Shown here: piece after piece, positions 44,010-59,184 of the stretch | How positions within the stretch are numbered: the stretch's first letter is position 1 | How the letters are laid out: every line of letters starts with the position of its first letter | Assembly (NCBI RefSeq): GCF_027532945.1 | Contig: NZ_JAPZTZ010000004.1 | Coordinates: 186,001-250,000 of the forward strand | Length of the DNA stretch: 64,000 nt | Direction: 5' to 3' | DNA from: Phreatobacter sp. | Lineage (GTDB): Bacteria > Pseudomonadota > Alphaproteobacteria > Rhizobiales > Phreatobacteraceae | Made by a program: the position numbers and the translations under genes | The notes under the pieces: model-generated | What the model saw: the letters and a program-made list of their open reading frames with translations, nothing else | Databases searched by the model: none | Told to the model about the DNA's origin: nothing

Positions 44010-46343
44010 TTACTCCGCCGCCGCTTGCCGCGCAAAACTCCCCCGCGCGTGACGCTTCGGCTTCGCCGCCAGTTTCAGCGCCTCGAAATCCGCCCGGTCC
44101 TTCACCGCATTGCGCAGCGCCTGGTCCTTGCCCGGCAGGTATTGCGGCGGCTGGTGGATATCGACGCCGTACCAGGCCGCCGCCTTCAGCATGAAGGAGG
44201 GATCGGCAAGATGCGGGCGGCCAAGCGCCACGAGGTCGGAGCGGCCGGCGGCGAGGATGGTGTTCATCTGGTCGGCCGAGGTGATGTTGCCGACGCACAT
44301 GGTCTTGACGTCAGCCTCGTTGCGGATGGCATCGGAGAAGGGCGTCTGGAACATGCGGCCATAGACCGGCCGGCTCTTCGGCGTGGTCTGGCCGGTGGAG
44401 ACGTCGACGAGGTCGACGCCGGCCTCGGCGAAGGCCCGGGCGATGGCGATGGCCTCGTCCTCGGTGATGCCGCCCTCGGCCCAGTCGGTGGCGGAGATGC
44501 GCACCGACATGGGCTTCTCCGCCGGCCAGGCCGCGCGCATCGCCGCGAAGACGCGGAGCGGGAAGCGCAGGCGGTTATCGAGGCTGCCGCCATAGGCGTC
44601 GGTGCGCTGGTTGGTCAGCGGCGACAGGAAGGAGGCGAGCAGGTAGCCGTGGGCGCAGTGCAGCTCCAGCATGTCGAAGCCGCAGCGCGCCGCGCGCTGC
44701 GTCGCCGCCACGAACTCGGCGGTGATGCGGGCCATGCCGGCCTCGTCCAGCTCCGCCGGCACCTGGCTGTCGGGATAGTAGGGCAGGGGGGAGGCGGAGA
44801 CGATCGGCCAGGCACCGTCAGTCAGTGGCCGGTCCATGCCCTCCCACATCAGCTTCGACGCGCCCTTGCGGCCGGCATGGCCGAGCTGGAGGCAGAGCTT
44901 CGCCTGCGAGTTCTGATGGGCGAAGGCGACGATGCGCGTCCAGGCCGCCTCCTGTCCATCGGACCAGAGGCCCGCACAGCCCGGGGTGATGCGGGCGTCC
45001 GGGGCGACGCAGACCATCTCGGTATAGACGAGGCCGGCGCCGCCGATGGCGCGGGCGCCGTAATGGACCACGTGCCAGTCGGTCGGCATGCCCTCCACCG
45101 CCGAATACATGCACATGGGCGAGACGACCGCGCGGTTCGCCACCGTGAGGCCGCGCAGGGTGAGCGGCTGGAACAGCGGCGGCCGGGGCTTCGCGAGATC
45201 CGCATCGGGCACGCTCTCCGCGAACATCCGGTCGGTCTCGGCGACGAAATCCGGCGCGCGCAGCTTCAGGTTCTCGTAGGTGATCGCCTTGGAACGGGTC
45301 ATCAGGCCGAAGGCGAACTGGCGCGGATCCATGTCCCAGAAGCGGTCGACATGCTCGAACCAGACGAGCGAGACATCCGCTGCGTGCTGGGTGCGCTCCA
45401 CCTCCTCGCGGCGGTCGGTCTCGTAGGAGGCGAGCGCCTCCGCCACGGTACCCTTGGCGCGGAAGGCATCGAACAGCGCGATGGAATCCTCCATGGCGAG
45501 CTTGGTGCCGGCGCCGATCGAGAAATGCGCCGTGCCCTTGGCATCGCCCATGAGGACGACATTGTCCTTCACCCAGCGCTTCGAACGGATCATCGGGAAT
45601 TGCCGCCAGAGCGAGCGGTTGGTGATGAGTGGATGGCCGGCGAGCTCCTCGGCGAAGACGCCCTCGAGGAAGCGGGCCGAGGCCTCCTCGTCCATGCGGT
45701 CGAGGCCGGCACGGGCGAAGGTGTCGGGATCGGTCTCGATGACCCAGGTCGAGCGGCCCGCCTCGTACTGGTAGGTATGGGCGATGAAGATGCCGAACGC
45801 GGTCTCGCGGAAGAAGAAGGTGAAGGCGTCGAGCTCGCGGGTGGAGCCCAGCCAGGTGAACTTGTTGGGGCGCAGGTCCACCTCGGGCTGGAAATGGTCG
45901 CGGTTGGCCTCGCGGATGCGGGAGTTGATGCCGTCGGCGGCGACAACGAGGTCGTAAGTCCCGAAGGTCTCCGGGCTCGGGTCGATCTCGGTCTGGAACT
46001 TCATCTCGACGCCGAGCTGGCGGGCGCGGTTCTGCAACAGGATGAGCAGGGTCTGGCGCGAGCAGCCGCAGAAGCCGTTGCCGCCGATGCGGTGCACCGT
46101 GTCCTTGAAGCGGACCTCGATGTCGTCCCAATAGGCGAAGTTCTCGGTGATGGCGCGGTAGCTCTCCGCGTCATAGCGCTCGAAAATGTCGAGGGTCGCG
46201 TCGGAAAAGACGACGCCGAAGCCGAACGTGTCGTCCGGGCGGTTGCGCTCGAAGACGGTGATCTCCGCCGCCGGCTGCCATTTCTTCATCAGGATGGCGA
46301 AATAGAGCCCGCCCGGTCCGCCGCCGATCACCGCGATGCGCAT
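44010..46343 (-). CDS. abmA: 2-Aminobenzoyl-CoA monooxygenase/reductase-type fused flavoprotein
   Basis: 777 residues with two enzyme domains. About 1-370: FAD monooxygenase ([14 protein letters not shown], later [20 protein letters not shown]). About 385-770: Old Yellow Enzyme-like FMN reductase ([34 protein letters not shown]). This fusion is the anthraniloyl-CoA monooxygenase/reductase of Azoarcus evansii and is often annotated as salicylyl-CoA 5-hydroxylase. It hydroxylates and reduces the ring of the CoA thioester without ring cleavage. The start at 46343 has GGGAG at a proper distance; the ATG two codons earlier sits on it. Divergent from the beta-oxidation genes. Confidence 0.9.
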
Positions 46344-46385
46344 GGCCATCTCCCTTGTCGCTGCGCCCGAAGGCGCGCGTCATGC

Positions 46386-46410
46386 AAAATAGTTTAGGCT
46401 TAAAATAATT
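46386..46410. promoter_or_regulatory. MarR-box copy 1
   Basis: 25-base AT-rich near-palindrome with core TTTAGGCTTAAAAT, 42 bases upstream of the abmA start. Shares its layout with copies at 46441-46465 and 58548-58572; the consensus core TTTTAAGCTTAAAA is perfectly palindromic. Confidence 0.7.
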
Positions 46411-46440
46411 GGCGGCAAGGCGCGGAAAGGCTCTTGCTCC

Positions 46441-46465
46441 AAAATATTTGAAGCTTAAAACATTC
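46441..46465. promoter_or_regulatory. MarR-box copy 2
   Basis: AAAATATTTGAAGCTTAAAA followed by CATTC, 55 bases after copy 1 (start to start, about five helical turns) and 16 bases before the ATG of the SDR gene. Bound protein here would block the rightward operon. Confidence 0.7.
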
Positions 46466-46481
46466 AGGCGAGGAGGCCACG

Positions 46482-47264
46482 ATGCCGACGGACCCCGCCG
46501 CCCTTTCCTCTGCGCTGTCGCCCCTCTCGGGCCGGCGCGCCCTCGTCACCGGGGGTGGACGCGGCATCGGCCGGGCCATCGCGGCGGCGCTGACGGGCCA
46601 GGGCGCCGAGGTCATCGTGCTCGGCCGCAGCCACGCCCCTCTCGCTGAGGCGGTCGCTGCAGGTCACGCCGCCCGTGCCATCGCCTGCGACGTCACCGAC
46701 CGTCCCGCCTTTGCGGAAGCGCTGCGCGGCGCAGGCGATCTCGACATCTTCATCAGCAATGCCGGCCATGCCGAGACCGCGCCGCTGAAGCGCATGGACG
46801 GCGCGCTCTTCGACCGCATGATCGCGCTGAACCTCACCGCCGTCTTCGACGGTATCCACGCCGTTCTCCCCGGCATGGTGGCGCGGGGCCAGGGGCGCAT
46901 CGTCTCGGTCGCCTCCACCGCCGGCCTCACCGGCTACCCTTACGTCTCCGCCTATTGCGCGGCGAAGCACGGCGTCGTCGGCCTGACGCGGGCGCTGGCC
47001 AAAGAGGTCGCGACCTCCGGCGTCACCGTCAATTGCGTCTGCCCCGGCTTCACCGAGACCGACCTCGTGGCCGGCTCCATCGAGACGATCGTTTCGAAGA
47101 CCGGCCGCAGCCCCGAGGCCGCGCTCGCCGACCTGACAAAAACCATGCCCATCGGCCGCCTGATCAAGCCGGAAGAGGTGGCAGCCGCCGTCCTCTGGCT
47201 CGTCTCGGATGCGGCCGCCGCCGTCACCGGCCTCGCTTTGCCGGTCGCTGGCGGAGAGATCTGA
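46482..47264 (+). CDS. SDR-family 3-hydroxyacyl-CoA dehydrogenase-like oxidoreductase
   Basis: 260-residue short-chain dehydrogenase with classical TGGGRGIG (23-30), ISNAG, catalytic Ser about 145, Tyr 158 and Lys 162 (AYCAAKHG). First gene of the rightward catabolic unit, with AGGAGG at 46470-46475. In the anthraniloyl-CoA pathway a beta-hydroxyacyl-CoA dehydrogenase step is needed; this protein is the natural candidate (inference from context). Confidence 0.9.
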
Positions 47265-47275
47265 GGAAACGACCC

Positions 47276-48118
47276 ATGCAAGCCCCCGCCCACCGCATCC
47301 CGCACCGACAGGCCCTGGCCGACTGGCAGGCGACGCATTTCCTCTGGGAGGTGAAAGGCAAGGTCGCGACCATCACGCTGAACCGCCCCGAGAAGAAGAA
47401 CCCGCTGACCTTCGAGAGCTATGCCGAGCTCGGCGACCTGTTCCGGGCGCTGGCCTTCGATACCTCCATCAAGGCGGTGGTGGTGACGGGTGCTGGCGGC
47501 AATTTCTGCGCCGGCGGCGACGTCTTCGAGATCATCGAGCCGCTCACCGGCCGCGACATGCCGGGCCTCCTGCAGTTCACCCGCATGACCGGCGAATTGG
47601 TGAAGGCGATGCGCGCCTGCCCGCAGCCGATCATTTCGGCAATAGACGGCATCTGCGTCGGCGCCGGCGCGATCATCGCCATGGCCTCGGACCTGCGCGT
47701 CGGCACGGCCAAGACCAAGGTCGCTTTCCTGTTCAACAAGGTCGGCCTTGCCGGCTGCGACATGGGCGCCTGCGCCATCCTGCCCCGCATCATCGGCCAG
47801 GGCCGCGCCTCGGAGCTGCTCTATACCGGCCGGATGATGGGCGGCGAGGAAGGCCACGCCTGGGGCTTCTTCAACCGCCTCGCGGCCTCCGATGCGGTGC
47901 TCGCCGAGGCCACCGCGCTGGCCGGCGAGATCGCCGATGGCCCGACCTTTGCGAATTCCATCACCAAGCGCATGCTGCACATGGAATGGACCATGTCGGT
48001 GGACGAGGCGATCGAGGCCGAGGCCATGGCTCAGGCGATCTGCATGGACACCAAGGACTTCCGCCGCGCCTTCGAGGCCTTCGCGGCGAAGACCAAGCCT
48101 GTTTTCGAGGGGGATTGA
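47276..48118 (+). CDS. Enoyl-CoA hydratase/isomerase family protein
   Basis: 280-residue crotonase-fold protein. The CoA/oxyanion motifs are [15 protein letters not shown] and [15 protein letters not shown], then [13 protein letters not shown] and [19 protein letters not shown]. Ends 1 base before the acyl-CoA dehydrogenase ATG. It would hydrate or open the alicyclic CoA ester made by the AbmA-type enzyme. Confidence 0.93.
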
Positions 48119-48119
48119 G

Positions 48120-49316
48120 ATGCTCCCCGCTGACCTCCTGTCGCTGCCCTTCTTCGAGGACCGCCACCGCGACTATGCCGCGCGGCTCGCGGACTGGGCC
48201 GGGCGCACCGTGCCGGGCCTCGTCGACCACCATGATGTCGACGGCTCCTGCCGCCGCCTCGTCGCCGCCATGGGCGCGGCGGGCTGGCTCAAGGCCTGCG
48301 TGCCCGGTGAGCAGGGCGGCCTGTACCCCGCCCTCGACGTGCGCACCCTCTGCATCACCCGCGCCACGCTCGGCTATGTCGAGGGCCTCGCCGATTTCGC
48401 CTTCGCGATGCAGGGCCTCGGCACCGGCGTCGTCTCGCTCTTCGGCACGCCGGAGCAGAAGGCGCTGTGCTGCCCGCCGGTGCGCGACGGCAAGGCGATC
48501 GCCGCCTTCGCCCTTTCCGAGCCCGATGCCGGCTCGGACGTCGCCGCCATGGCGACCACCGCCACACGGACGGCCGACGGCGGCTGGCGGCTCGACGGCA
48601 CCAAGACCTGGATCTCCAATGGCGGCATCGCCGACCGCTACGTGGTCTTCGCCCGCACCGGCGAGGCGCCCGGCGCCCGCGGCATCTCGGCCTTCATCGT
48701 TCCCGCCGACGCGCCCGGCCTCATCATCGCCGAGCGCATCGACGTCATCGCCCCGCATCCGCTCGCGACCCTCGTCTTCGAGGACTGCCACTTGCCCGCC
48801 GATGCGCTGATCGGCAAGGCCGGCGGCGGCTTCGCCATGGCCATGGCGAACCTCGACATCTTCCGCCCCACCGTCGCCGCAGCCGCCCTCGGCATGGGCT
48901 ACCGGGCCCTCGACGAGGCGACGCGCCGGGCGAAGTCCCGCATCATGTTCGGCGCCCCGCTCGCCGACCTGCAGCTCACCCAGGCCTCGCTCGCCGACAG
49001 TGTCGCCGAGCTCGAGGCCGCGGCCCTGCTGGTCTTCCGCGCCGCCTGGGCGAAGGACCAGGGCAAGCCCCGCATCACCAAGGAGGCGGCCATCGCCAAG
49101 ATGGTCGCCACCGAAAATGCCCAGAAGGTCATCGACCGGGCGATCCAGGTCTTCGGCGGCCTGGGCGTCAAGAAGGGCGAAAAGGTGGAGGAACTGTATC
49201 GGGAGATCCGCGCCCTGCGCATCTACGAGGGGGCGACCGAAGTCCAGAAGGTCGTCATCGCCAGGGCTCATCTCGCCGAGGCCGAGGCCGCGGCTTTCCC
49301 CAAGGCAGCCGAATAG
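48120..49316 (+). CDS. Acyl-CoA dehydrogenase
   Basis: 398-residue FAD enzyme. Blocks: [32 protein letters not shown], and near the C-terminus [13 protein letters not shown] and [18 protein letters not shown] with the usual catalytic Glu region (about 370). It introduces a double bond next to the thioester and is coupled to the hydratase upstream (1 base gap). Confidence 0.94.
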
Positions 49317-49326
49317 GGAGCGTCCG

Positions 49327-51003
49327 ATGACGGGATCGGTGGTGAAGCTCAGGCCGGATACGACATCCGCCCATGTCGACAGCTTCGCGGCGCGCGGCCT
49401 GCCGCCGGCCGAGTTCCAGCCGGCCTTCCTCTTCGACCGGCCCGAACTCGCCTATCCCGAGCGGCTCAACTGCGTCACCGAATTCGTCGACCGCCACGTG
49501 GTGGAGGGCAGGGGGGCGCGCACCGCCATCCTGAGCCCCGACGGCACGAACTGGACCTATCAGGACCTCGCCGCCGAGATCGACCGCATCGCCAATGTGC
49601 TGACCGGCCCCCTCGGCCTCGTGCCCGGCAACCGCGTGCTGCTGCGCGCGCCGAACAACCCGACCATGGTCGCGGCCTATCTCGCGGTCATCAAGGCCGG
49701 CGGCATTGTGGTGGCCACCATGCCGCTCCTGCGCGCCAAGGAACTCGGCCAGATCGTCGACAAGGCGGAGATCGCCCTGGCCCTCTGCGACGACCGGTTG
49801 ATGGACGAGCTGACCAAGACCGCTGGCACCTCGCGGTTCCTGAAGCGCATCGTCGGCTTCACCGAGCTGAAGGCGCTCGCGAGCGCGGCGCCTGCCACCT
49901 TTGCCGCCGTCGACACGGCGCGCGACGATGTCTGCCTGTTCGGCTTCACCTCGGGCACCACCGGCGAGCCGAAATGCACCATGCATTTCCACCGCGACCT
50001 GCTCGCCATCTGCGACGCCTATGCGCGCAACGTGCTGAGACCGGCGCCCGACGATCGCTTCATCGGCTCGCCGCCGCTCGCCTTCACCTTCGGCCTCGGC
50101 GGCCTCGTGCTCTTCCCCTTCCGCGTCGGCGCTTCTACCGTCCTCCTGGAGAAGGCCTCGCCCGGCGATCTCCTCCCCGCCATCGCGACCTACAAGCCGA
50201 CCATCTGCTTCACCGCGCCCACCGCCTATCGCGCCATGATCCCGCAGCTGCGCGACCACGACTGGCGCTCGCTGAAGAAATGCGTTTCGGCCGGCGAGGC
50301 TCTCCCGAAGGCGACCTTCGATGCCTGGGAGGAGGCCACCGGCCTCAAGCTCATGGACGGCATCGGCGCGACCGAGATGCTGCACATCTTCATCTCCGCG
50401 CCCGAGGAGGCCATCCGCCCCGGCGCGACGGGCAAGCCCGTGCCGGGCTACGAGGCCAAGGTCATCGGCGCCGACGGCGAGGACCTTCCCCCCGGCAAGC
50501 CCGGCCGCCTTGCCGTACGCGGCCCGACCGGCTGCCGCTACCTCGCCGACGAGCGCCAGCGCCGCTACGTCGTCGATGGCTGGAACGTCACCGGCGACAC
50601 CTATGTCCGCGATGAGGACGGCTATTTCTGGTACCAGGCGCGCAACGACGACATGATCGTCTCCGCCGGCTACAACATTGCCGGCCCCGAGGTGGAGGCA
50701 GCGCTCCTCGCCCATCCGACCGTCGCCGAGGCCGGCGTCGTCGGCCAGCCCGATCCCGAGCGCGGCATGATCGTCAAGGCCTATGTCGTGCCGAAGCCCG
50801 ACGTGACGGTGACCCCGGCCCTTGTCGTCGAACTCCAGAGCTTCGTGAAGAACGAGATCGCGCCCTACAAGTACCCGCGCGAGATCGCCTTCGTCCCCAG
50901 CTTGCCGCGCACCGAGACCGGCAAGCTCCAGCGCTTTGCGCTCCGCGAGCGCGCCGCCCGCGAGGCCGGCGAGGTCTCAGGCCTCCCCAAGGCTGCGGAA
51001 TAA
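49327..51003 (+). CDS. abmG: Benzoate/2-aminobenzoate-type CoA ligase
   Basis: 558-residue AMP-forming aryl-CoA ligase. The start region AHVDSFAARGLPPAEFQPAF is characteristic of 2-aminobenzoate-CoA ligases. The AMP loop is TSGTTGEPK (208-216), followed by CTMHFHRDL; later GATEMLHIF, TGDTYVRDEDGYFWYQARND and the catalytic Lys in TGKLQRFALRE. It would activate the imported aromatic acid. GGGAG lies before the ATG at 49327. The symbol rests on this resemblance and context. Confidence 0.88.
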   Translation: MTGSVVKLRPDTTSAHVDSFAARGLPPAEFQPAFLFDRPELAYPERLNCVTEFVDRHVVEGRGARTAILSPDGTNWTYQDLAAEIDRIANVLTGPLGLVPGNRVLLRAPNNPTMVAAYLAVIKAGGIVVATMPLLRAKELGQIVDKAEIALALCDDRLMDELTKTAGTSRFLKRIVGFTELKALASAAPATFAAVDTARDDVCLFGFTSGTTGEPKCTMHFHRDLLAICDAYARNVLRPAPDDRFIGSPPLAFTFGLGGLVLFPFRVGASTVLLEKASPGDLLPAIATYKPTICFTAPTAYRAMIPQLRDHDWRSLKKCVSAGEALPKATFDAWEEATGLKLMDGIGATEMLHIFISAPEEAIRPGATGKPVPGYEAKVIGADGEDLPPGKPGRLAVRGPTGCRYLADERQRRYVVDGWNVTGDTYVRDEDGYFWYQARNDDMIVSAGYNIAGPEVEAALLAHPTVAEAGVVGQPDPERGMIVKAYVVPKPDVTVTPALVVELQSFVKNEIAPYKYPREIAFVPSLPRTETGKLQRFALRERAAREAGEVSGLPKAAE

Positions 51004-51033
51004 GGCTGCCGCACAGGTAGCCGGAGAGAGATC

Positions 51034-51480
51034 ATGAGCCAGACCCTGAAGCCCGTCATTCCCCTGAGCCTCCCCGACGAGGAGGTCCGCCCCATCACCC
51101 TCAACCCGCAGGGCTGGCCGGTGCCGCGCGGCTATGCCAACGGCATGAGCGCCAAGGGCCGCCTCGTCGTCACCGGCGGCGTCGTCGGCTGGGACATCAT
51201 GGGGAACTTTCCCGCCGAGTTCGTCGCCCAGGCGCGCCAGTGCTTCGAGAACATCCGCGCCATCCTCGCCGAGGGCGGCGCCGAGCCGCACCATGTCGTG
51301 CGCCTCACCTGGTACGTGACCGATGTCGAGGAATACCAGGCGAACCTCAAGGGCCTCGGCCGCGCCTATCGCGACGTCTTCGGCCAGCACTATCCGGCCA
51401 TGGCCGTGGTGCAGGTGGTGCGGCTGGTGGAGAGGGCGGCGAAGATCGAGATCGAGGCGACGGCGGTCGTGGCGGAGTAG
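51034..51480 (+). CDS. RidA-family protein lacking the substrate-binding Arg
   Basis: 148-residue trimeric-fold protein of the YjgF/RidA family, last gene of the rightward catabolic unit. The strand that in RidA reads PAR-x-x-V-E-V here reads YPAMAVVQV, so the conserved Arg that holds the substrate carboxylate is Met 123. The C-terminal KIEIEATAVVAE is kept. RidA-like proteins hydrolyse enamines/imines to ketones and ammonia; loss of the Arg fits a CoA-ester substrate without free carboxylate, or another function. Confidence 0.9.
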   Translation: MSQTLKPVIPLSLPDEEVRPITLNPQGWPVPRGYANGMSAKGRLVVTGGVVGWDIMGNFPAEFVAQARQCFENIRAILAEGGAEPHHVVRLTWYVTDVEEYQANLKGLGRAYRDVFGQHYPAMAVVQVVRLVERAAKIEIEATAVVAE

Positions 51481-51500
51481 GGCAACGGCCCGACCCCATC

Positions 51501-51591
51501 CGTCATGCCCGGCCTTGTCCCGGGCATCCACGACTTGATTTGAGGCGGCGGTGGTCAAGCGTGGATGGCCGGGACAAGCCCGGCCATGACG
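51501..51591. terminator. Long inverted repeat between convergent RidA genes
   Basis: Left arm CGTCATGCCCGGCCTTGTCC (from 51501) continuing to CCACGACTTG at about 51536; right arm CAAGCGTGGATGGCCGGGAC (from about 51556) continuing to GGCCATGACG at 51591. Near-perfect 36-base arms around a 19-base loop. It belongs to a repeat type widespread in Alphaproteobacteria and probably terminates both convergent transcripts. Confidence 0.7.
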
Positions 51592-51614
51592 CGGGGGTGT
51601 CCGGCTCTCGCGCC

Positions 51615-52076
51615 TCAGTCGTGGATCCGGATCACCGCTTCGATCTCCACGGTAATCCCCATGGGCAGCGAGCCCATGCCCACCGCAGAGCGGGCGTGGC
51701 GGCCGCGGTCGCCGAGCACCGCCACCATCAGGTCGGAGAAGCCATTGATGACGCGCGGATGGTCGCCGAAATCCGGCGTGCCATTGACCATGCCCAGCAC
51801 TTTCAGGAACTCGACCTTGGACAGGTCGCCGCCGGCCGCCGCCTTGGCCGAGGCGAGGATCTGCAGGCCCACCAGCTTAGCGTGCTCATAGGCCGCCTCG
51901 ACGGTTACATCGCCGCCGACCTTGCCGGTATGCAGCGAGCCATCCGCTTTGCGCGGTCCCTGGCCCGCCAGATAGGCGATGTTGCCGTCTCGCTTGAAGG
52001 GCACGTAATTGCCGGCCGGCGTCGGCGTCGGCGGCAGGGTGAGGCCCAACTGGGCGAGCTTGTCTTCCGGGGTCAT
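51615..52076 (-). CDS. RidA-family protein retaining the substrate-binding Arg
   Basis: 153-residue second RidA-type protein. The diagnostic strand reads RHARSAVGMGSL with Arg 129, then ITVEIEAVIRIHD, so an imine/enamine deaminase on a free carboxylate is plausible. The start at 52076 (MTPEDKLAQLG) fits the family. It lies 10 bases after the PLP enzyme gene, suggesting that it removes reactive imine/enamine products of that enzyme (inference). Confidence 0.88.
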   Translation of the reverse strand: MTPEDKLAQLGLTLPPTPTPAGNYVPFKRDGNIAYLAGQGPRKADGSLHTGKVGGDVTVEAAYEHAKLVGLQILASAKAAAGGDLSKVEFLKVLGMVNGTPDFGDHPRVINGFSDLMVAVLGDRGRHARSAVGMGSLPMGITVEIEAVIRIHD

Positions 52077-52086
52077 GGACCTGTCC

Positions 52087-53169
52087 TCACCTGAGCTTGC
52101 CACGGGCGGCGACGGGCAGAATACCGACGATCTCCTCGCCGCGCACCATCACCACCTCGTCGACCATGTTGACGACGACGCAGACATGGTTCGGCACGAC
52201 GCGCACGATGTCGCCGACCTTCGGTCGCTCGTTGCATTTCGACAGGTCGAGGAAGCCGTGCTCCTCGGCGAACTTGGCGATGCGCGCTTCCGGGTGCTCG
52301 AGGATCAGGCCGTAGCCGTCGAGCCCGCCGCCGGGATCGGCGGTCAGGGTCTTCGAACCGGCATCGAGGATGCCGCGATCGGCGCCAGCGCGGCTGACCA
52401 CGGTCGAATAGACGGTCAGCGCGCAGTCATCGAGGCTGGCGACGCCGACCTCGACCTGCATCCGGTCATTGTAGATATAGGTGCCCGGCCGGTGCTCGGT
52501 CGCGCCCTTCAGCTTGCCGATATTCTTCATGTTCGGCGAGCCGCCGGTGGAGATGATCTCGGCGTCGAGGCCCTCCAGCCGGATACCGGCCAGCGCCGTG
52601 TCGAGGAACTTCTGCGCCTCCGGCCAGCCGTCCTCGGTCGGGTACATCATGAAGCCCTTGAAGGCGAGGCCGGGAGAGGCCGCGACGAGCTTGGCAAGTT
52701 CGATGGCTTCGCCCGGCGTCTCGACGCCGGCCCGCTTGCGGCCCGTGTCGCATTCGATGACGACGCCGAGCGGGCGGCCCGCCACCGCCGCGGCCTTCGG
52801 CAGGTCGCCGATCACCGCGGCATTGTCGGCGGCCACCGTGACGCTGATCGTCTCCAGCAGCCGGCCGAGCCGGTTCATCTTCTCCTCGCCGAGGAGGTTG
52901 TAGCTGATGAGGATGTCGTCGAGGCCGGCGGCGGCCATCACCTCGGCCTCGCCGATCTTCTGGCAGGTGATGCCCTTGGCGCCGGCCGCGACCTGCAGCT
53001 TTGCCAGTTCCGGGCTCTTGTGTGTCTTGATGTGAGGGCGATTGGCCAGCCCCTGGGCGTCGCACTGCGCCTGCACCCGCGCGATGTTCGCCTCCACCCT
53101 GTCCATGTCGATGACGACGGCGGGGGTCCCGTATTCGCGGGCGATTGTTTCGGCGAGAGGGGTGGCCAT
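52087..53169 (-). CDS. D-threonine aldolase / D-serine dehydratase-like PLP enzyme (alanine racemase fold)
   Basis: 360-residue fold-type III PLP enzyme. N-terminal barrel: TPAVVIDMDRVEANI and the cofactor Lys in RPHIKTHKSPEL (K48). C-terminal metal site of the DSD1/DTA group: VVPNHVCVVVN with H328 and C330 as zinc/manganese ligands. Substrate is a D-hydroxy-amino acid, cleaved to glycine plus aldehyde or deaminated. It lies between the RidA gene and livF, 28 bases from the latter, in the same transcriptional direction. Confidence 0.88.
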   Translation of the reverse strand: MATPLAETIAREYGTPAVVIDMDRVEANIARVQAQCDAQGLANRPHIKTHKSPELAKLQVAAGAKGITCQKIGEAEVMAAAGLDDILISYNLLGEEKMNRLGRLLETISVTVAADNAAVIGDLPKAAAVAGRPLGVVIECDTGRKRAGVETPGEAIELAKLVAASPGLAFKGFMMYPTEDGWPEAQKFLDTALAGIRLEGLDAEIISTGGSPNMKNIGKLKGATEHRPGTYIYNDRMQVEVGVASLDDCALTVYSTVVSRAGADRGILDAGSKTLTADPGGGLDGYGLILEHPEARIAKFAEEHGFLDLSKCNERPKVGDIVRVVPNHVCVVVNMVDEVVMVRGEEIVGILPVAARGKLR

Positions 53170-53197
53170 GGCGGCTCCGATCAAGGCGTGCACGGGG

Positions 53198-53899
53198 TCA
53201 GACGTGCAGATAGCGATCCTTCAGGTCGGGACTAGCGAGGAAATCGCCGCTCGTCCCTTCCCAGACGATCCGGCCCTTCTCCAGGATCAGGTGCCGGTCG
53301 GCCAGTTTGACCAGAGCGTCCACGTTCTTGTCGATCACCAGGATCGATTGGCCGTCCTGCTTGAGGCGCGCGAGACAGGCCCAGATCTCCGCGCGGATGA
53401 CGGGGGCAAGCCCTTCCGTCGCCTCGTCGAGGACGAGGAGCTTCGGATTGGTCATCAGCGCCCGGCCGATGGCGAGCATCTGCTGCTCGCCGCCCGAGAG
53501 CTGCGTGCCCATGTTGCGCCTTCGCTCCTTCAGCCGCGGGAAGAAGGCGTAGACGCGCTCCAGCGTCCAGGCCTGCTCGCGCTTGCCCCGGTTGGCGGCG
53601 GTGGCGACGAGGTTTTCCTCGACGTCGAGATTGGGGAAGATCTGCCGGCCCTCGGGGACGAGGCCAAGGCCGGCCTGCGCCACCTTGAACGGCGGCTGGC
53701 CGGCCAGCGCCACGCCCTCGACCTCCACCGCGCCCGCGGCGGGCCGGATGAGGCCGAAGATCGACTTGATCGTCGTCGTCTTGCCCATGCCGTTGCGGCC
53801 GAGCAGGGTCACGACCTCGCCGGCTTTGACGCTCAGCGAGACGCCGAACAGCACTTGCACGTCGCCGTAGCCGGCCTCGAGATTGGAGACGCTCAGCAT
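53198..53899 (-). CDS. livF: Branched-chain type ABC transporter ATPase LivF (second system)
   Basis: 233-residue ATPase with Walker A GRNGMGKTT, signature LSGGEQQ and Walker B LLVLDEATEGLAP. Belongs to the transporter spanning 53198-58428. One base separates its start from the stop of the MarR gene. Confidence 0.93.
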   Translation of the reverse strand: MLSVSNLEAGYGDVQVLFGVSLSVKAGEVVTLLGRNGMGKTTTIKSIFGLIRPAAGAVEVEGVALAGQPPFKVAQAGLGLVPEGRQIFPNLDVEENLVATAANRGKREQAWTLERVYAFFPRLKERRRNMGTQLSGGEQQMLAIGRALMTNPKLLVLDEATEGLAPVIRAEIWACLARLKQDGQSILVIDKNVDALVKLADRHLILEKGRIVWEGTSGDFLASPDLKDRYLHV

Positions 53900-53900
53900 C

Positions 53901-54419
53901 TCAGTCCTCCGCCTCCTCGCGCGCCGCGGACGCCCGGGCGACGCCGGCCTTGGTCTTGGCGAGCAGGCCCATCATCACGTCGCGCTCGGTCGGGTCGAGA
54001 CCGGCGAGCAATTCGCGCACCCAGGCGCCATGCTCGCGCGCCATGCGGGCGAACTGCTCGTGGCCCTCGGGCGTCATGACGATGCGCTGGGCGCGCCCGT
54101 CGCTGACGTCGCGGCGGCGTTCGACGAAGCCCTGTTCGGCGATGCGGGCGACAAGGCCGGTGACATTGCCGTTGGTGACCATCATGCGCTTGGAAATCTC
54201 GCCGAGCGTCATGCCCTCCGGCGACTTGTCGAGCTGCGCCAGCAGGTCGAAGCGCGGCAGGGTGATCTGGAACCGCTCGGCCAAGCGGCGGCGGATCTCC
54301 CGCTCGATCATCGTCGTGCAGGTGAGGAGGCGCAGCCAGAGCCTGAGCTCGGGGCGCGAATCCCGGGGCTGGTGGGCGAGGCGCGTCTCGGCGTCGATGG
54401 CGATGTCGGGCTCGCTCAC
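53901..54419 (-). CDS. MarR-family transcriptional regulator
   Basis: 172-residue winged-helix regulator from a GTG start. The DNA-binding region reads MTLGEISKRMMVTNGNVTGL then IAEQGFVERRRDVSDGRAQR, typical of MarR, with RFDLLAQLDKSPEG upstream. It is embedded in the transporter operon: its start overlaps the livG stop by 4 bases and livF follows after 1 base. It is the best candidate to bind the three 25-bp boxes, probably released by an aromatic acid or its CoA ester (inference). Confidence 0.9.
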   Translation of the reverse strand: MSEPDIAIDAETRLAHQPRDSRPELRLWLRLLTCTTMIEREIRRRLAERFQITLPRFDLLAQLDKSPEGMTLGEISKRMMVTNGNVTGLVARIAEQGFVERRRDVSDGRAQRIVMTPEGHEQFARMAREHGAWVRELLAGLDPTERDVMMGLLAKTKAGVARASAAREEAED

Positions 54420-55171
54420 GCGAAGTCCTCCTCGCCGAGATAGGCCTCGCGCACGGCGGGGTCGGCGCGAACGGCCTCAGGCGTTCCGGAGGCGATGACC
54501 CTGCCATAGACCAGCACCGAGATGCGGTCGGCGAGGCGGAAGACCGCGTGCATGTCGTGCTCGACCAGCACCATGGGATAGCGGCCCTTGAGCGCCATCA
54601 GCACCTCGACCATGCCCTCGGTCTCCTCGCGGCCCATGCCGGCCATGGGCTCGTCGAGGAGCAGGATCTTCGGCGAGGAGACCAGCGCCATGGCGATTTC
54701 CAGCTGGCGCTTTTCGCCGTGGGACAGGCTCGCCGCAACCATGCCGGCGCGGGGCGCGAGGCCGACCTGCGCGAGCGCGTCCATGGCGACGCGGTTCAGG
54801 TGAGATTCGGACGAGGCCCGGCGGAAGAAGTGGAAGGACGAGCCGTCATGGGCCTGGGCGGCGGTCGCGACATTCTCCAGAGCCGTGAAGCCGGGCAGGA
54901 CCTGGGTGATCTGGAAGGAGCGGGTGAGGCCGCGCAGCGCCCGCTGGTGGATCGGCAGGCGCGTGATGTCTTCGCCGCAGAAGGAGATGGTGCCGGCATC
55001 GAGCGCCACCTCGCCGGTGATCTCGCCGATCAGCGTCGTCTTGCCGGCGCCGTTAGGGCCGATGATGGCGTGGAGCTCGCCGGGCATGACGTCGAGGCTG
55101 ACGCCATCGGTGACCTTGAGGGCGCCGTAGCTCTTGTGCAGGCCGGAGAGGGAGAGGACGGGGGTGCTCAT
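54416..55171 (-). CDS. livG: Branched-chain type ABC transporter ATPase LivG (second system)
   Basis: 251-residue ATPase: Walker A GPNGAGKTT, signature LSHGEKRQLE (LivG form), Walker B ILLLDEPMAGMG. Its start shares one base with the livM stop and its end overlaps the MarR gene by 4 bases. Confidence 0.93.
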   Translation of the reverse strand: MSTPVLSLSGLHKSYGALKVTDGVSLDVMPGELHAIIGPNGAGKTTLIGEITGEVALDAGTISFCGEDITRLPIHQRALRGLTRSFQITQVLPGFTALENVATAAQAHDGSSFHFFRRASSESHLNRVAMDALAQVGLAPRAGMVAASLSHGEKRQLEIAMALVSSPKILLLDEPMAGMGREETEGMVEVLMALKGRYPMVLVEHDMHAVFRLADRISVLVYGRVIASGTPEAVRADPAVREAYLGEEDFA

Positions 55172-56139
55172 CACCGGTCTCCCCGCGTCAGGAGCTTCAC
55201 GATGCCGCCGCGGGCGAAGATGGCGACGAGGATCACCATGGGCCCGAAGATCACCTTCCAGTGCTGGGTGATCTGGGCGAGCCATTCCTCGACCAGCGTC
55301 ACGCCGATGCCGCCAATGATCGGGCCGATCAGCGTGCCCATGCCGCCGAGCACCACCATGGCGATGAACTCGCCCGAGCGCTGCCAGGTCATGTAGGCGG
55401 GGGCGACGAACATGCCGAGATTGGCGAAGAGCGCGCCGGCCAGCGCGCAGATCGCACCCGCCAGGACATAGGCGGCGAGGCGGTAGAGGAAGGGATCGAA
55501 GCCGAGCGCCCGCATCCGCCGCTCGTTCTCCTTGGCCCCCCGCAGCACCCGGCCGAAGCGCGAGGCGACGATGGCCTTGAGCAAGAGGAAACAGGCGAGC
55601 AGGGTGCCGAGCACGACGAAATAGAAGGTCGTGTCATTGGCGAGAAGCCGCGAGCCGAAGACCTCGGAACGGTGGAACATCCTGAGGCCATCGTCGCCGC
55701 CGTAAGCCGAGAGGCTGGTGGCGGTGAACAGCGCCATCTGCCCGAAGGCCAGCGTGATCATGATGAAATAGACACCGCGGGTCTTCAGCGAGATGGCGCC
55801 GGTGACGAGGGCGAAGAGCGCGCCGGCGAGGATCGCCACGGGAAAGGCGATGGAGGCATCGACAATGTCGTGGGTGAAGAGGATCGCCACCGCATAGGCA
55901 CCGATGCCGAGGAAGGCCGCGTGGCCGAAGGAGACCAGCGCCCCATAGCCGAGGATCAGGTCGAGGGAGAGCGCGGCGATCGCCATGATCATGGCGCGGG
56001 TGACGAGGCCAAGGATGAAGCGCTCGCCCCAGATCAGCGGCACGATGGCGAGCAGCGCGAAGACGAGGACGGGGAGCCAGATCCGTCGCCAGAGCGGCGG
56101 GGCGGCGGGCATCACGGGGGGGACGGGGGTCTCGGCCAT
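55171..56139 (-). CDS. livM: Branched-chain type ABC transporter permease LivM (second system)
   Basis: 322-residue permease. The LivM motif LILGYGALVSFGHAAFLGIG is present, with TRGVYFIMITLAFGQM and GALFANLGMFVAPAYMTW. Starts 3 bases after the livH stop. Confidence 0.93.
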   Translation of the reverse strand: MAETPVPPVMPAAPPLWRRIWLPVLVFALLAIVPLIWGERFILGLVTRAMIMAIAALSLDLILGYGALVSFGHAAFLGIGAYAVAILFTHDIVDASIAFPVAILAGALFALVTGAISLKTRGVYFIMITLAFGQMALFTATSLSAYGGDDGLRMFHRSEVFGSRLLANDTTFYFVVLGTLLACFLLLKAIVASRFGRVLRGAKENERRMRALGFDPFLYRLAAYVLAGAICALAGALFANLGMFVAPAYMTWQRSGEFIAMVVLGGMGTLIGPIIGGIGVTLVEEWLAQITQHWKVIFGPMVILVAIFARGGIVKLLTRGDR

Positions 56140-56142
56140 CGG

Positions 56143-57066
56143 TCAGCCCTTGGCCGGGAAGAGGCCGGTCGGCCGGAAGAACAGCACGGCGGCCATGAGG
56201 ATGTAGATGGACATGGAGGCGATCGCCGGGCCGATGGTCCGCGCGTCGGAGGGCGACAGGCCGCCGAGGCGCAAGAGGTCCACCGAGAAGGAGCGCAGCA
56301 GCGTGTCGACGAGGCCGACCAGCAGCGCGCCGACGAAGGCGCCGCGGATGGAGCCGATGCCGCCGATGACGATGACGACGAAGGCGAGGATCAGGAGATT
56401 GTCGCCCATGCCCGGCTCGACCGAGAGGACCGGCGCAGCCATGGCGCCGGCAAAACCCGCCAGCATGGCGCCGAAGCCGAAGACGATCATGAAGAGGCGG
56501 CGGATATCGATGCCGAGCGCCGAGACCATCGGCGCATTGGTGGCCCCGGCGCGGATCAGCATGCCGACCCGCGTCTTGGTGACAACGAGCCAGAGCCCGA
56601 CCGCAACCGCGAGGCCCGAACCGATGATGGCGAGCCGCCAGACCGGATAGAGCACGCCGTCGGCAATGCGGATCGTGCCGGAGAGCGCCTGCGGCATCGG
56701 CACCTGCAGCGGCGCTGCGCCCCAGATGATTTTCACGCCCTCGTTGAGGAAGAGGATGAGGCCGAAGGTCGCCAGCACCTGTTCGAGATGGTCGCGGTCA
56801 TAGAGGTGCCGCATCACGACGACCTCCAGCACCAGGCCGACGAGCAGGGCCGTGGCGAGCGCCAGGATCAGGCCCAGCACGAAGCTGCCCGTCAGCGGCA
56901 CGAACATGGCGGCGAGATAGGCGCCGAGCATGTACTGGACGCCGTGGGCGAGGTTGATGAAGTCCATCACGCCGAAGACCAGGGTGAGGCCGGCGGCGAT
57001 CAGGAACAGCAGCACGCCGAGCTGCAGCCCGTTCAGCGTCTGGATGATGAGGAGCGTGGAGGACAT
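56143..57066 (-). CDS. livH: Branched-chain type ABC transporter permease LivH (second system)
   Basis: 307-residue permease. LivH motif GLQLGVLLFLIAAGLTLVFG followed by VMDFINLAHG. The start at 57066 (MSSTLLIIQTL) is chosen because the longer frame would be made from the repeat element upstream. Separated from its receptor gene by 189 bases holding two palindromic elements. Confidence 0.92.
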   Translation of the reverse strand: MSSTLLIIQTLNGLQLGVLLFLIAAGLTLVFGVMDFINLAHGVQYMLGAYLAAMFVPLTGSFVLGLILALATALLVGLVLEVVVMRHLYDRDHLEQVLATFGLILFLNEGVKIIWGAAPLQVPMPQALSGTIRIADGVLYPVWRLAIIGSGLAVAVGLWLVVTKTRVGMLIRAGATNAPMVSALGIDIRRLFMIVFGFGAMLAGFAGAMAAPVLSVEPGMGDNLLILAFVVIVIGGIGSIRGAFVGALLVGLVDTLLRSFSVDLLRLGGLSPSDARTIGPAIASMSIYILMAAVLFFRPTGLFPAKG

Positions 57067-57082
57067 CGCAGGCCGATCGGAA

Positions 57083-57131
57083 ACCCTCTCCCCTCGTGGG
57101 AGAGGGTGGCGCCAGAGGCGCCGGGTGAGGG
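57083..57131. repeat. REP-like family B element, copy A
   Basis: Hairpin ACCCTCTCCC/GGGAGAGGGT (57083-57092, 57098-57107) followed by hairpin GGCGCC-AGA-GGCGCC (57108-57122) and GGGTGAGGG. Inverted relative to copy B at 57192-57240. Confidence 0.75.
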
Positions 57132-57191
57132 CGGGCAACAGGATGCCGGCCGCGGAAGCGGTGGCGATGGGTATCGGTGAGGACCAAGCGG

Positions 57192-57240
57192 CCTCACCCG
57201 GCAGCTGACGCTGCCACCCTCTCCCACGCGGGGAGAGGGT
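57192..57240. repeat. REP-like family B element, copy B (inverted)
   Basis: CCTCACCC, hairpin GGCAGC-TGAC-GCTGCC, then hairpin ACCCTCTCCC/GGGAGAGGGT (57216-57225, 57231-57240). It starts only 15 bases past the stop of the receptor gene on the minus strand, placing the structure at the 3' end of that coding region. Confidence 0.75.
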
Positions 57241-57255
57241 GGTGTCGCGAGTGGC

Positions 57256-58428
57256 TTACCAGCGCATCTGGCACTGGGCGGCGTAGACGTCCGTGTAGTT
57301 CTCGAAGATGCGCTCGACGATCTCCGTCTGGAACTTGCCATCGGCGCGCTTGGCGGCGCGGACGGTGTAGAAGTCCTGGATCGGATAATGGTTGTTGGCG
57401 AAGCGGAAGCGGCCGCGCAGCGACACGAAGTCGGCCTTGCGCAGGGCGGTGCGCACCGCGTCGCGGTTCGACAGGTTGCCATTGGTGGCGCGCACCGCGC
57501 TGTCGATCAGCATGGCGGCGTCATAGGCCTGCATGGCGTAGGAGCCCGGCACCGAGCCGAAGGCCGCCTCGTAATCCGCGACGAACTTCTTGTTCTGCGG
57601 ATTGTCCATGTTCGGCGCCCAGGTCATGCCGGCGATCATGCCGACAGCGGCGTCCTGCTGGGCCGGCAGCGTCGATTCATCGACGGTGAAGGCGGAGAGG
57701 AACGGCACGCGCTGGGTGAGGCCGGCCTGCGAATACTGGCGGACGAGGTTCACGCCCATGCCGCCCGGCATGAAGGTGAACATGGCATTGGCGCCCGACG
57801 AGCCGATGCGGGCGAGCTCGGAGGAGAAGTCCAGCGTGTTGAGCGGGACATAGACCTCGTCGACGACCTGGCCGCGGAAGTGGCGCTTGAACCCGGCCAT
57901 GGCGTCGCGCCCGGCCTGGTAGTTCGGCGTCATCAGGAAGACCCTCTGCATGCCCTGGCGCTGGGCATAGGCGCCGAGCACCTCGTGCACCTGGTCATTC
58001 TGGTAGGAGGTGACGAAGAAGTTCTCGTGGCAGCCGCGGCCGGCATAGACGGACGGGCCGGCATTGGCGCTGATGAGGAAGGCGCGCTGCGAGGTCACCA
58101 CCGGCTGGTGGATGGCCTGGAGCACGTTGGAGAAGATCGGTCCGACCACGAAGTCGACACGGTCACGGTCGACGAGGGCCTGGACGCGCTGGACGGCCAC
58201 GTCCGGCTTCAGCTCGTCGTCGACGACGATGACCTGAACCTCGCGCCCGCCCATGCGCCCACCGAGATGGCGGACGGCGAGCTGCAGGCCGTCGCGCGCC
58301 TGCTGACCGAGGACGGCACCGGGACCTGACAATGTCTGGATCACGCCGATACGGATCGGCTCCTGGGCCTGCGCGGGTGCCGACAGCGCGGCCGCTCCCA
58401 ACGCCAGAGAGAGAAGGATGCGCTTCAT
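57256..58428 (-). CDS. Branched-chain type ABC transporter receptor (second system; aromatic-acid candidate)
   Basis: 390-residue periplasmic receptor: signal peptide MKRILLSLALGAAALSAPAQ, mature start PIRIGVIQTLSGPGAVLGQQ, then QVIVVDDELKPDVAVQR. GGGAGG sits before the ATG at 58428. It resembles receptors co-encoded with aromatic catabolism, and the neighbouring genes suggest a benzoate-type ligand such as anthranilate (inference). Upstream lies a MarR box at 58548-58572. Confidence 0.92.
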   Translation of the reverse strand: MKRILLSLALGAAALSAPAQAQEPIRIGVIQTLSGPGAVLGQQARDGLQLAVRHLGGRMGGREVQVIVVDDELKPDVAVQRVQALVDRDRVDFVVGPIFSNVLQAIHQPVVTSQRAFLISANAGPSVYAGRGCHENFFVTSYQNDQVHEVLGAYAQRQGMQRVFLMTPNYQAGRDAMAGFKRHFRGQVVDEVYVPLNTLDFSSELARIGSSGANAMFTFMPGGMGVNLVRQYSQAGLTQRVPFLSAFTVDESTLPAQQDAAVGMIAGMTWAPNMDNPQNKKFVADYEAAFGSVPGSYAMQAYDAAMLIDSAVRATNGNLSNRDAVRTALRKADFVSLRGRFRFANNHYPIQDFYTVRAAKRADGKFQTEIVERIFENYTDVYAAQCQMRW

Positions 58429-58507
58429 CGAAAACCTCCCACCCCGAGCGACGCTCGGGTCGACGACCGCTCCCGGGCTTGTCCGTGGTCGCGGCCAATG
58501 CGAAGGC

Positions 58508-58535
58508 ATTATCGCCGTGGAATTTTCGCGAACAA
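58508..58535 (-). promoter_or_regulatory. Possible promoter of the second transporter operon
   Basis: On the minus strand TTGTTC (58530-58535) and GATAAT (58508-58513) are spaced by 16 bases, about 80 bases before the receptor ATG and just downstream of the MarR box. A modest match only. Confidence 0.35.
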
Positions 58536-58547
58536 CCCCACCTGCGA

Positions 58548-58572
58548 AAAATATTTTAAGTGTAAAATAAAT
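58548..58572. promoter_or_regulatory. MarR-box copy 3
   Basis: AAAATATTTTAAGTGTAAAA followed by TAAAT: same 25-base layout as the boxes at 46386 and 46441. It lies 119 bases upstream of the receptor gene (minus) and 15 bases before the tag ATG (plus). Confidence 0.7.
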
Positions 58573-58587: not shown

Positions 58588-59184
58588 ATGTTGCTCACCG
58601 ATCATGCAGACGGCAAGCCGCGGTGCTGGTGGCCGGGCTACGATCCGCTCTATGTCGCCTATCACGACACCGATTGGGGCGTGCCCGAGCGCGACGACCG
58701 CGCCCTGTTCGAGAAGCTCATTCTCGATGGATTCCAAGCCGGTTTGTCGTGGATCACGATCCTCCGCAAGCGCGAGCACTTCCGCAAGGTCTTCGACGGC
58801 TTCCGCCCGGAGGTGGTCGCCAGCTACGGCCCGGAGAAGATCGAGGCGCTGATGGCGGACCCCGGAATCGTGCGCAATCGCGCCAAGATCGAGGGCACTG
58901 TGAAGTCCGCCGGCCTCTATTGCGACATGATGGCGCGCGGCGAGGGGTTCTCGGATTATCTGTGGACCTATGTCGATGGCCGGCCGCTCCAGCCCGACCA
59001 TCTGGACCGCTCAGCGATCCCCACGCAGACGCCGGTGGCGGAGGCGATCTCCAAGGACCTGAAGCGCCGCGGCTTCACCTTTGTCGGGCCGACCATTGTG
59101 TACGCCTTCATGCAGGCGGTGGGCATGACCAACGACCACGTGGTCGGCTGCTTCCGCCACGAGGAGGTCAAGGCGCTGGGGTGA
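58588..59184 (+). CDS. tag: DNA-3-methyladenine glycosylase I
   Basis: 198-residue repair enzyme excising 3-methyladenine. The N-terminal PRCWWPGYDPLYVAYHDTDW then GVPERDD supplies C13 and H26 of the structural zinc site; H184 and C188 in NDHVVGC complete it, with the same 4-residue spacing as in E. coli Tag. AGGAGG at 58577-58582 supports the ATG at 58588; a longer frame would run through the MarR box. Confidence 0.95.
   Translation: MLLTDHADGKPRCWWPGYDPLYVAYHDTDWGVPERDDRALFEKLILDGFQAGLSWITILRKREHFRKVFDGFRPEVVASYGPEKIEALMADPGIVRNRAKIEGTVKSAGLYCDMMARGEGFSDYLWTYVDGRPLQPDHLDRSAIPTQTPVAEAISKDLKRRGFTFVGPTIVYAFMQAVGMTNDHVVGCFRHEEVKALG

Follow-up and report, generated by a model that had tools for sequence, protein, structure and literature searches.

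A MarR-family regulator and its predicted operators at both ends of an anthranilate-breakdown island in Phreatobacter

In a 64,000-nucleotide stretch of a Phreatobacter sp. genome (contig NZ_JAPZTZ010000004.1, positions 186,001 to 250,000; hereafter the window), three AT-rich inverted repeats lie at the borders of a gene island for anthranilate breakdown. Boxes 1 and 2 separate abmA from a divergent operon headed by a short-chain dehydrogenase/reductase (SDR) gene, and box 3 adjoins the receptor gene of an ABC transporter. We conclude that these boxes are very probably the operators of a MarR-family protein encoded in the island, which would thereby regulate anthranilate breakdown. The original prediction, made from the letters of the window, had proposed a shared MarR operator tying together both ends of the island, and this proposal is supported, at the level of sequence, by specificity within the genome, by conservation in the genus and by a matrix test outside the genus. 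The name abmA is an assumed one, based on that prediction and on pathway knowledge; the best curated model for the encoded protein is salicylyl-CoA 5-hydroxylase. The AMP-binding ligase of the divergent operon is, judging from its context, likely a 2-aminobenzoate-CoA ligase.

All three boxes sit where they had been placed, their 25-bp reads being AAAATAGTTTAGGCTTAAAATAATT (box 1, 46386), AAAATATTTGAAGCTTAAAACATTC (box 2, 46441) and AAAATATTTTAAGTGTAAAATAAAT (box 3, 58548). The high-GC background of the window was confirmed (68.7%), and boxes 1 and 2 are its only 22-mers to combine a GC content of at most 30% with 8 or more of the 11 dyad pairs. With 7 of 11 pairs, as against 8 in box 1 and 9 in box 2, box 3 is the poorest palindrome of the three. 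The perfect palindrome AATATTTTAAGCTTAAAATATT, with three mismatches allowed, accordingly matched boxes 1 and 2 and not box 3, and the exact string TTNAAGCTTNAA had box 2 as its sole match in the genome. The layout first proposed, AAAATA-N-TTT-N-A-N-G-N-N-TAAAA, has one T too many, needs two or three mismatches and misses box 1; by eye, the layout common to all three boxes is AAAATA-N-TT-N-A-R-G-N-N-TAAAA. When the window was shuffled 100 times, neither the first layout nor the palindrome with three mismatches was matched by chance.

We searched the 4.13-Mb genome with a pattern of 21 bases read from the three boxes, allowing at most three mismatches, and recovered the three boxes and one other site, with three mismatches, on another contig (C30:37122), which the open reading frames around it did not account for; the reversed control pattern gave none. 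The first layout, taken literally, matched one site elsewhere and had two control matches. The genome-wide scan that had been suggested as a check therefore returned few matches rather than many unrelated promoters. Across 12 genomes of the genus, the 21-base pattern found 32 island boxes and four sites elsewhere, and because the reversed pattern with three mismatches yielded two forward and eight reverse matches in the same genomes, these four are at the level of chance. Comparison of the intergenic regions showed the boxes recurring at the same gene borders: box 3 in all 12 genomes, and boxes 1 and 2 in 10, the contig that carries abmA stopping short of the box position in the other two. A relative of the MarR protein (E 1e-30) was present in 11 of the 12.

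To ask about other genera, we built a matrix from ten boxes of the genus only and applied it to 60 stretches around MarR relatives outside the genus (60 of the 65 such matches down to E 4.2e-38). Sites scoring at least 20 occurred in 52 of the 60 stretches, 102 sites in total, whereas ten symmetric matrices with permuted columns gave an average of 1.0 site in the same stretches. Nearly all of the 102 sites (99) fell near a pathway gene, from 400 bp ahead of its start to 30 bp inside it; such intervals together cover 18% of the sequence. From box centre to gene start the distances were 26–187 bp for abmA (at most 91 bp in 31 of 38 cases), −9 to 229 bp for the SDR gene, 10–118 bp for the CoA ligase, 39–235 bp for the MarR gene and 130–245 bp for the receptor; box 3 lies 132 bp from the receptor start, and 29 receptor-side sites elsewhere fall in that last range. 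In a pass at a lower score (8) over 74 stretches, comprising the 60 and 14 further loci, overlapping and single sites together numbered 147, compared with 10.4 in Markov controls.

The MarR gene also travels with abmA. Among 397 genomes of the order Hyphomicrobiales, which includes Phreatobacter, 117 had a MarR relative; at thresholds of E 1e-25 for MarR and E 1e-140 for abmA, 113 genomes had both genes, 9 had abmA only, 4 had MarR only and 271 had neither. A strict form of the pattern, with one mismatch, was found in 61 of the 117 MarR-positive and 30 of the 280 MarR-negative genomes (Fisher 8e-18). Outside the genus the corresponding counts were 50 of 106 and 29 of 279, and those of the reversed pattern 11 of 106 and 38 of 279. 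The strict pattern occurred in 59 of the 113 genomes with both genes.

Features of the protein itself are consistent with its binding such a dyad. It matched PF12802 (E 9.7e-13) and PF01047 (E 1.8e-12), both above cut-off; its AF2 model (mean pLDDT 85.2) has the MarR fold; and the motif M-V-T-N-G-N of the recognition helix is nearly invariant in 12 MarR proteins. The nearest solved chain by sequence is 3boq (E 1.2e-32). A Foldseek search placed the MftR–DNA complex first (E 1e-9), followed by many MarR entries; MftR (8ylg) and PecS (8yli), at ranks 1 and 11 and with 25–26% identity, were both solved with operator DNA according to their entry titles. Taken by sequence, then, the island has what a MarR-family operator system would be expected to have: a 22-bp dyad at each of three gene borders, with marR in the run of genes that one of them heads. 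The likely binder is the MarR protein, given the shape of the dyad, its adjacency to MarR genes across many genera and a recognition helix that hardly varies.

In the mechanism that we propose, a MarR dimer would bind each 22-bp inverted repeat through half-sites resembling AATATTTTAAG. A conserved TTGC or TTGT element precedes boxes 1 and 2, each at the distance of a −35 element (alignments of 10 and 12 genomes), and because each box follows such an element, both would overlap the promoter at its spacer and −10. With boxes 1 and 2 on the likely spacer and −10 of two divergent promoters, the bound protein would keep RNA polymerase from transcribing abmA and the SDR–hydratase–dehydrogenase–CoA ligase–RidA operon. 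Box 3 would head the receptor–livHMG–MarR–livF–aldolase–RidA operon, placing the uptake genes and MarR under the same control in a closed feedback loop. That the MarR gene lies inside the gene run starting beside box 3 had gone unremarked in the original prediction, and this position makes autoregulation through box 3 likely. Once substrate becomes available, MarR would be released by anthranilate or, more probably, by its CoA thioester; an aromatic CoA thioester as effector we infer from the CoA ligase of the island. Binding, repression, promoters, operon extents, ligand and the direction of the control exerted at box 3 are likewise parts of the scheme that we infer. One element of the earlier proposal found no support, namely cooperative binding of boxes 1 and 2 on one face of the helix: their separation of 55 bp corresponds to 5.24 turns (at 10.5 bp per turn), or ~86 degrees off, and spacings elsewhere are 54 bp in one genome of the genus and 69 bp, or 6.57 turns, in several relatives.

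At box 3, the largely conserved sequence TTGTTC-N16-GATAAT beyond the box is a second candidate promoter. If that sequence is the promoter, box 3 sits 14 bp upstream of the receptor −35, which is no classic position for a repressor, and MarR might act as an activator at box 3 but as a repressor at boxes 1 and 2. The conservation of these promoter-like elements in the 12 genomes of the genus favors activation, but in 6 of 10 relatives displayed, TTCACA (four loci) or TTGACA (two loci) directly precedes the receptor-side box, which would therefore overlap a promoter there and fit repression with a long leader; on balance we consider activation unlikely, though it is the most probable of the alternatives. 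Box 3 could instead serve tag, a DNA-repair gene, rather than the transporter, since only 16 bp separate its end from the start codon of tag, comparable with the 17 bp between box 2 and that of the SDR gene, and the arrangement of box 3 and tag is kept in the genus. Outside the genus, however, the box stays 130–245 bp from the receptor gene and no tag match appeared among the results for those stretches. We therefore rejected tag as the main conserved target of box 3, a reading we hold to be quite improbable; co-regulation of tag may be a by-product of the box. That the boxes are ordinary promoter elements, alike by composition only, is the least credible reading of all: their AT-richness and their probable overlap with promoters speak for it, but the permuted matrices had the same composition as the real one and the pattern has a single other site in the genome, and we rejected it on the matrix test.

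Several observations weigh against MarR binding at the boxes or bear on who the binder is. A few chance matches are normal at a stringency of three mismatches, as the reversed control in the genus shows; 8 of the 60 MarR stretches outside the genus had no matrix site; and the strict pattern was missing from 56 of the 117 MarR-positive genomes while present in 25 of the 271 with neither MarR nor abmA (of these 25, 10 are matched by the reversed control as well, and 12 have a size of at most 1.6 Mb). Outside the genus, 29 genomes had a box but no MarR relative; a more sensitive search uncovered a divergent MarR in 2 of them, and matches in the rest we regard as unexplained or due to chance. MarR proteins of an Azospirillum type (two aligned) have the same recognition helix, yet no box was found in the two loci of this group that were scanned (L024 and L026). 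By eye, a different dyad, TTGCTTGTGCACCAAGCA, lies upstream of a same-helix MarR gene beside a CoA ligase gene in L024 and L031 (Azospirillum tabaci; Roseomonas genomospecies 6). Because the box accompanies abmA as well as MarR, counting genomes is not enough to identify the binder, and the genomes with only one of the two genes (9 and 4) were too few to separate them. A different, unlinked regulator might thus bind the boxes, with the MarR gene a bystander. Two genomes outside the genus, G182 and G309, have abmA and a box (in G309, 199 bp before abmA) and no MarR relative at E 1e-20, but both are draft assemblies, in roughly 750 and 320 contigs, respectively. Of the genes annotated in the island, moreover, MarR alone is of a regulator type, 30 sites in other genera lie at most 400 bp from a MarR start, and the dyad suits a MarR dimer. 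We consider an unlinked binder a shade less probable even than the tag reading, and keep to MarR as the protein that would bind.

Boxes also stand before genes of tryptophan breakdown in some genomes, an observation that is new here. Among the matches listed for the strict pattern, we chose by hand, and thus non-randomly, 19 boxes in MarR-positive genomes and took 18 stretches around them, together with two around MarR genes; some of the boxes were less than 20 kb from MarR and others on other contigs. Fifteen of the 19 were at receptor or liv, abmA, CoA ligase, or tryptophan-dioxygenase or kynureninase genes, and four were beside genes without a clear link. The neighbors of those four (L180:4488, L190:4271, L181:14340 and L182:4160) are an FAD oxidoreductase, a solute-binding protein of family 5, an acyl-CoA dehydrogenase and a MatE protein. 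In G365 and G300, a box lies between a gene for tryptophan 2,3-dioxygenase (in G365, PF03301 E 4e-68) and a divergent gene resembling kynureninase (in G300, Aminotran_5 E 1.7e-10 and KYNU_C E 2.5e-6). In four genomes of one genus (L213, L216, L217 and L218), a box precedes a three-gene run of alpha/beta hydrolase, dioxygenase and kynureninase; in L217, these matched an NCBIfam hormone-sensitive lipase model and, both above cut-off, TIGR03036 (dioxygenase) and TIGR01814 (kynureninase).

The association extends to gene content. Tryptophan 2,3-dioxygenase was found in 79 of the 117 MarR-positive but 10 of the 280 MarR-negative genomes; in 22 of those 79 it is no more than 20 kb away from MarR. 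At the best 30 dioxygenase loci, a site scoring at least 18 was present in 9 of 26 MarR-positive and 0 of 4 MarR-negative cases (at least 20 in 7 of the 26); among the 9, one is MarR's own box (L203) and one was known beforehand (L220). In 4 of the 12 genomes of the genus, the dioxygenase gene is inside the island. In one of them (G009) it follows RidA, and the gene after it encodes a class-V aminotransferase (PF00266 E 1.8e-7), a putative kynureninase given that it had no NCBIfam match; G006 and G011 have a similar pair by eye. In the genus, the loci with a dioxygenase and then a kynureninase-like class-V aminotransferase inside the abm island are L084:9478-11726, L090 and L091. The tryptophan-gene boxes fit a regulon running from tryptophan through anthranilate to 2-aminobenzoyl-CoA and are the best argument for anthranilate or its CoA ester as the signal.

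The kind of mechanism proposed is already well known: MarR regulators of aromatic pathways include CouR (PMC4737184) and IadR (PMC9613470). CouR, a MarR-family protein of Rhodococcus jostii that responds to p-coumaroyl-CoA, is described there as binding a box, cATTGA-N5-TCAATg, that overlaps the −35 (PMC4737184). Both systems would have a dimeric MarR protein that sits on inverted repeats at the promoters of an aromatic CoA pathway, among them a divergent one and its own; the difference lies in the dyad, here close to the perfect palindrome given above, and in its predicted overlap with the spacer and −10 rather than the −35. Compared by eye with the CouR box as that source gives it, our three boxes do not carry it and share their own layout instead. 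IadR (MarR_73), of auxin degradation in Variovorax, resembles the present protein in that it is a MarR, has a site of 24 bp and serves a pathway leading to anthranilate; its ligand is indole-3-acetic acid and its locus iad (PMC9613470), whereas the genes in the window act downstream of anthranilate. A literature search by title or opening of the abstract, operator strings included and with subscription papers mostly outside its reach, returned neither this regulon nor this operator. KynR, a kynurenine-responsive regulator of the Lrp/AsnC type, governs the conversion of tryptophan to anthranilate. It shares that metabolic step with the regulon considered here but belongs to another protein family: the Pfam and NCBIfam scan of the window protein matched MarR-type and other winged-helix models, and no AsnC-type model was among its results.

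Table 1. Boxes, promoter-like elements and genes of the island, with positions in the window.
Feature	Position	Strand	Remarks
abmA-like fused flavoprotein	44010..46349	-	PF01494 + PF00724; NF006101 1123.7 bits, cut-off 1078
Box 1	46388..46409	.	22-bp AT-rich dyad AATAGTTTAGGCTTAAAATAAT, upstream of abmA; 8/11 dyad pairs; 10/12 genus genomes
−35-like element of abmA, TTGCCG	46413..46418	-	+ strand CAAG conserved, 10-genome alignment; predicted promoter
−35-like element of SDR operon, TTGCTC	46434..46439	+	CTTGC in 10/10 aligned genomes; predicted promoter
Box 2	46443..46464	.	22-bp dyad AATATTTGAAGCTTAAAACATT, 17 bp before SDR start codon; 9/11 pairs; 10/12 genus genomes
SDR oxidoreductase	46482..47264	+	PF00106/PF13561; first gene of box-2 operon
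Enoyl-CoA hydratase	47276..48118	+	PF00378 E 9.7e-43
Acyl-CoA dehydrogenase	48120..49316	+	PF00441, PF02770
AMP-binding ligase	49327..51003	+	PF00501 E 1.1e-71
RidA-family gene 1	51034..51480	+	PF01042
RidA/YjgF-family gene 2	51615..52103	-	PF14588, PF01042; last gene of box-3 operon here
Alanine racemase-fold/D-serine dehydratase-like protein ('aldolase')	52087..53193	-	PF14031 + PF01168
livF-like ABC ATPase	53198..53899	-	PF00005; UrtE/LivF models best, under cut-off
MarR-family regulator	53901..54419	-	PF12802/PF01047; proposed binder of the three boxes; inside box-3 operon
livG-like ABC ATPase	54416..55171	-	PF00005 + PF12399 (scanned with longer start at 55285)
livM-like permease	55171..56139	-	PF02653
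livH-like permease	56143..57066	-	PF02653
Periplasmic receptor of transporter	57256..58428	-	PF13458; first gene of box-3 operon
Second candidate promoter of receptor operon, TTGTTC-N16-GATAAT	58508..58535	-	14 bp past box 3; largely conserved, 12 genomes; predicted promoter
Box 3	58550..58571	.	22-bp dyad AATATTTTAAGTGTAAAATAAA between receptor gene and tag; 7/11 pairs; 12/12 genus genomes
tag, 3-methyladenine DNA glycosylase	58588..59184	+	PF03352; divergent neighbor of box 3

Some further features of the island are recorded here (Table 1). In the receptor leader (58430-58535), GGACAAGC and AATGCC, on the minus strand, are well conserved in most of the 12 genomes of the genus. The alanine racemase-fold protein scored 193 bits with the BhcC model, against a cut-off of 690; it has no obvious part in anthranilate breakdown, and the aligned genomes of the genus all retain it among the genes headed by box 3 (83–97% identity outside the window). 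In-frame stops were indicated for some relatives of abmA; in the two that we examined we read them as the natural end of the gene, since L148 has one stop, at codon 777, and none was seen inside L137.

These results would give a MarR subfamily with relatives in 117 of 397 genomes a defined predicted operator, a target set and a likely class of ligand, and they make its members candidate sensors of anthranilate or 2-aminobenzoyl-CoA. A broader possibility, on which we are evenly divided, is that in many Hyphomicrobiales one MarR runs the whole route from tryptophan through kynurenine, anthranilate and 2-aminobenzoyl-CoA to central metabolism, together with the transporter, and senses 2-aminobenzoyl-CoA or anthranilate midway, so coupling amino-acid and aromatic breakdown. 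If so, the Phreatobacter species of the window, in whose genome tryptophan 2,3-dioxygenase had no match, would hold only the lower half of that route. For some of these bacteria, the regulon predicts joint induction of tryptophan and anthranilate breakdown.

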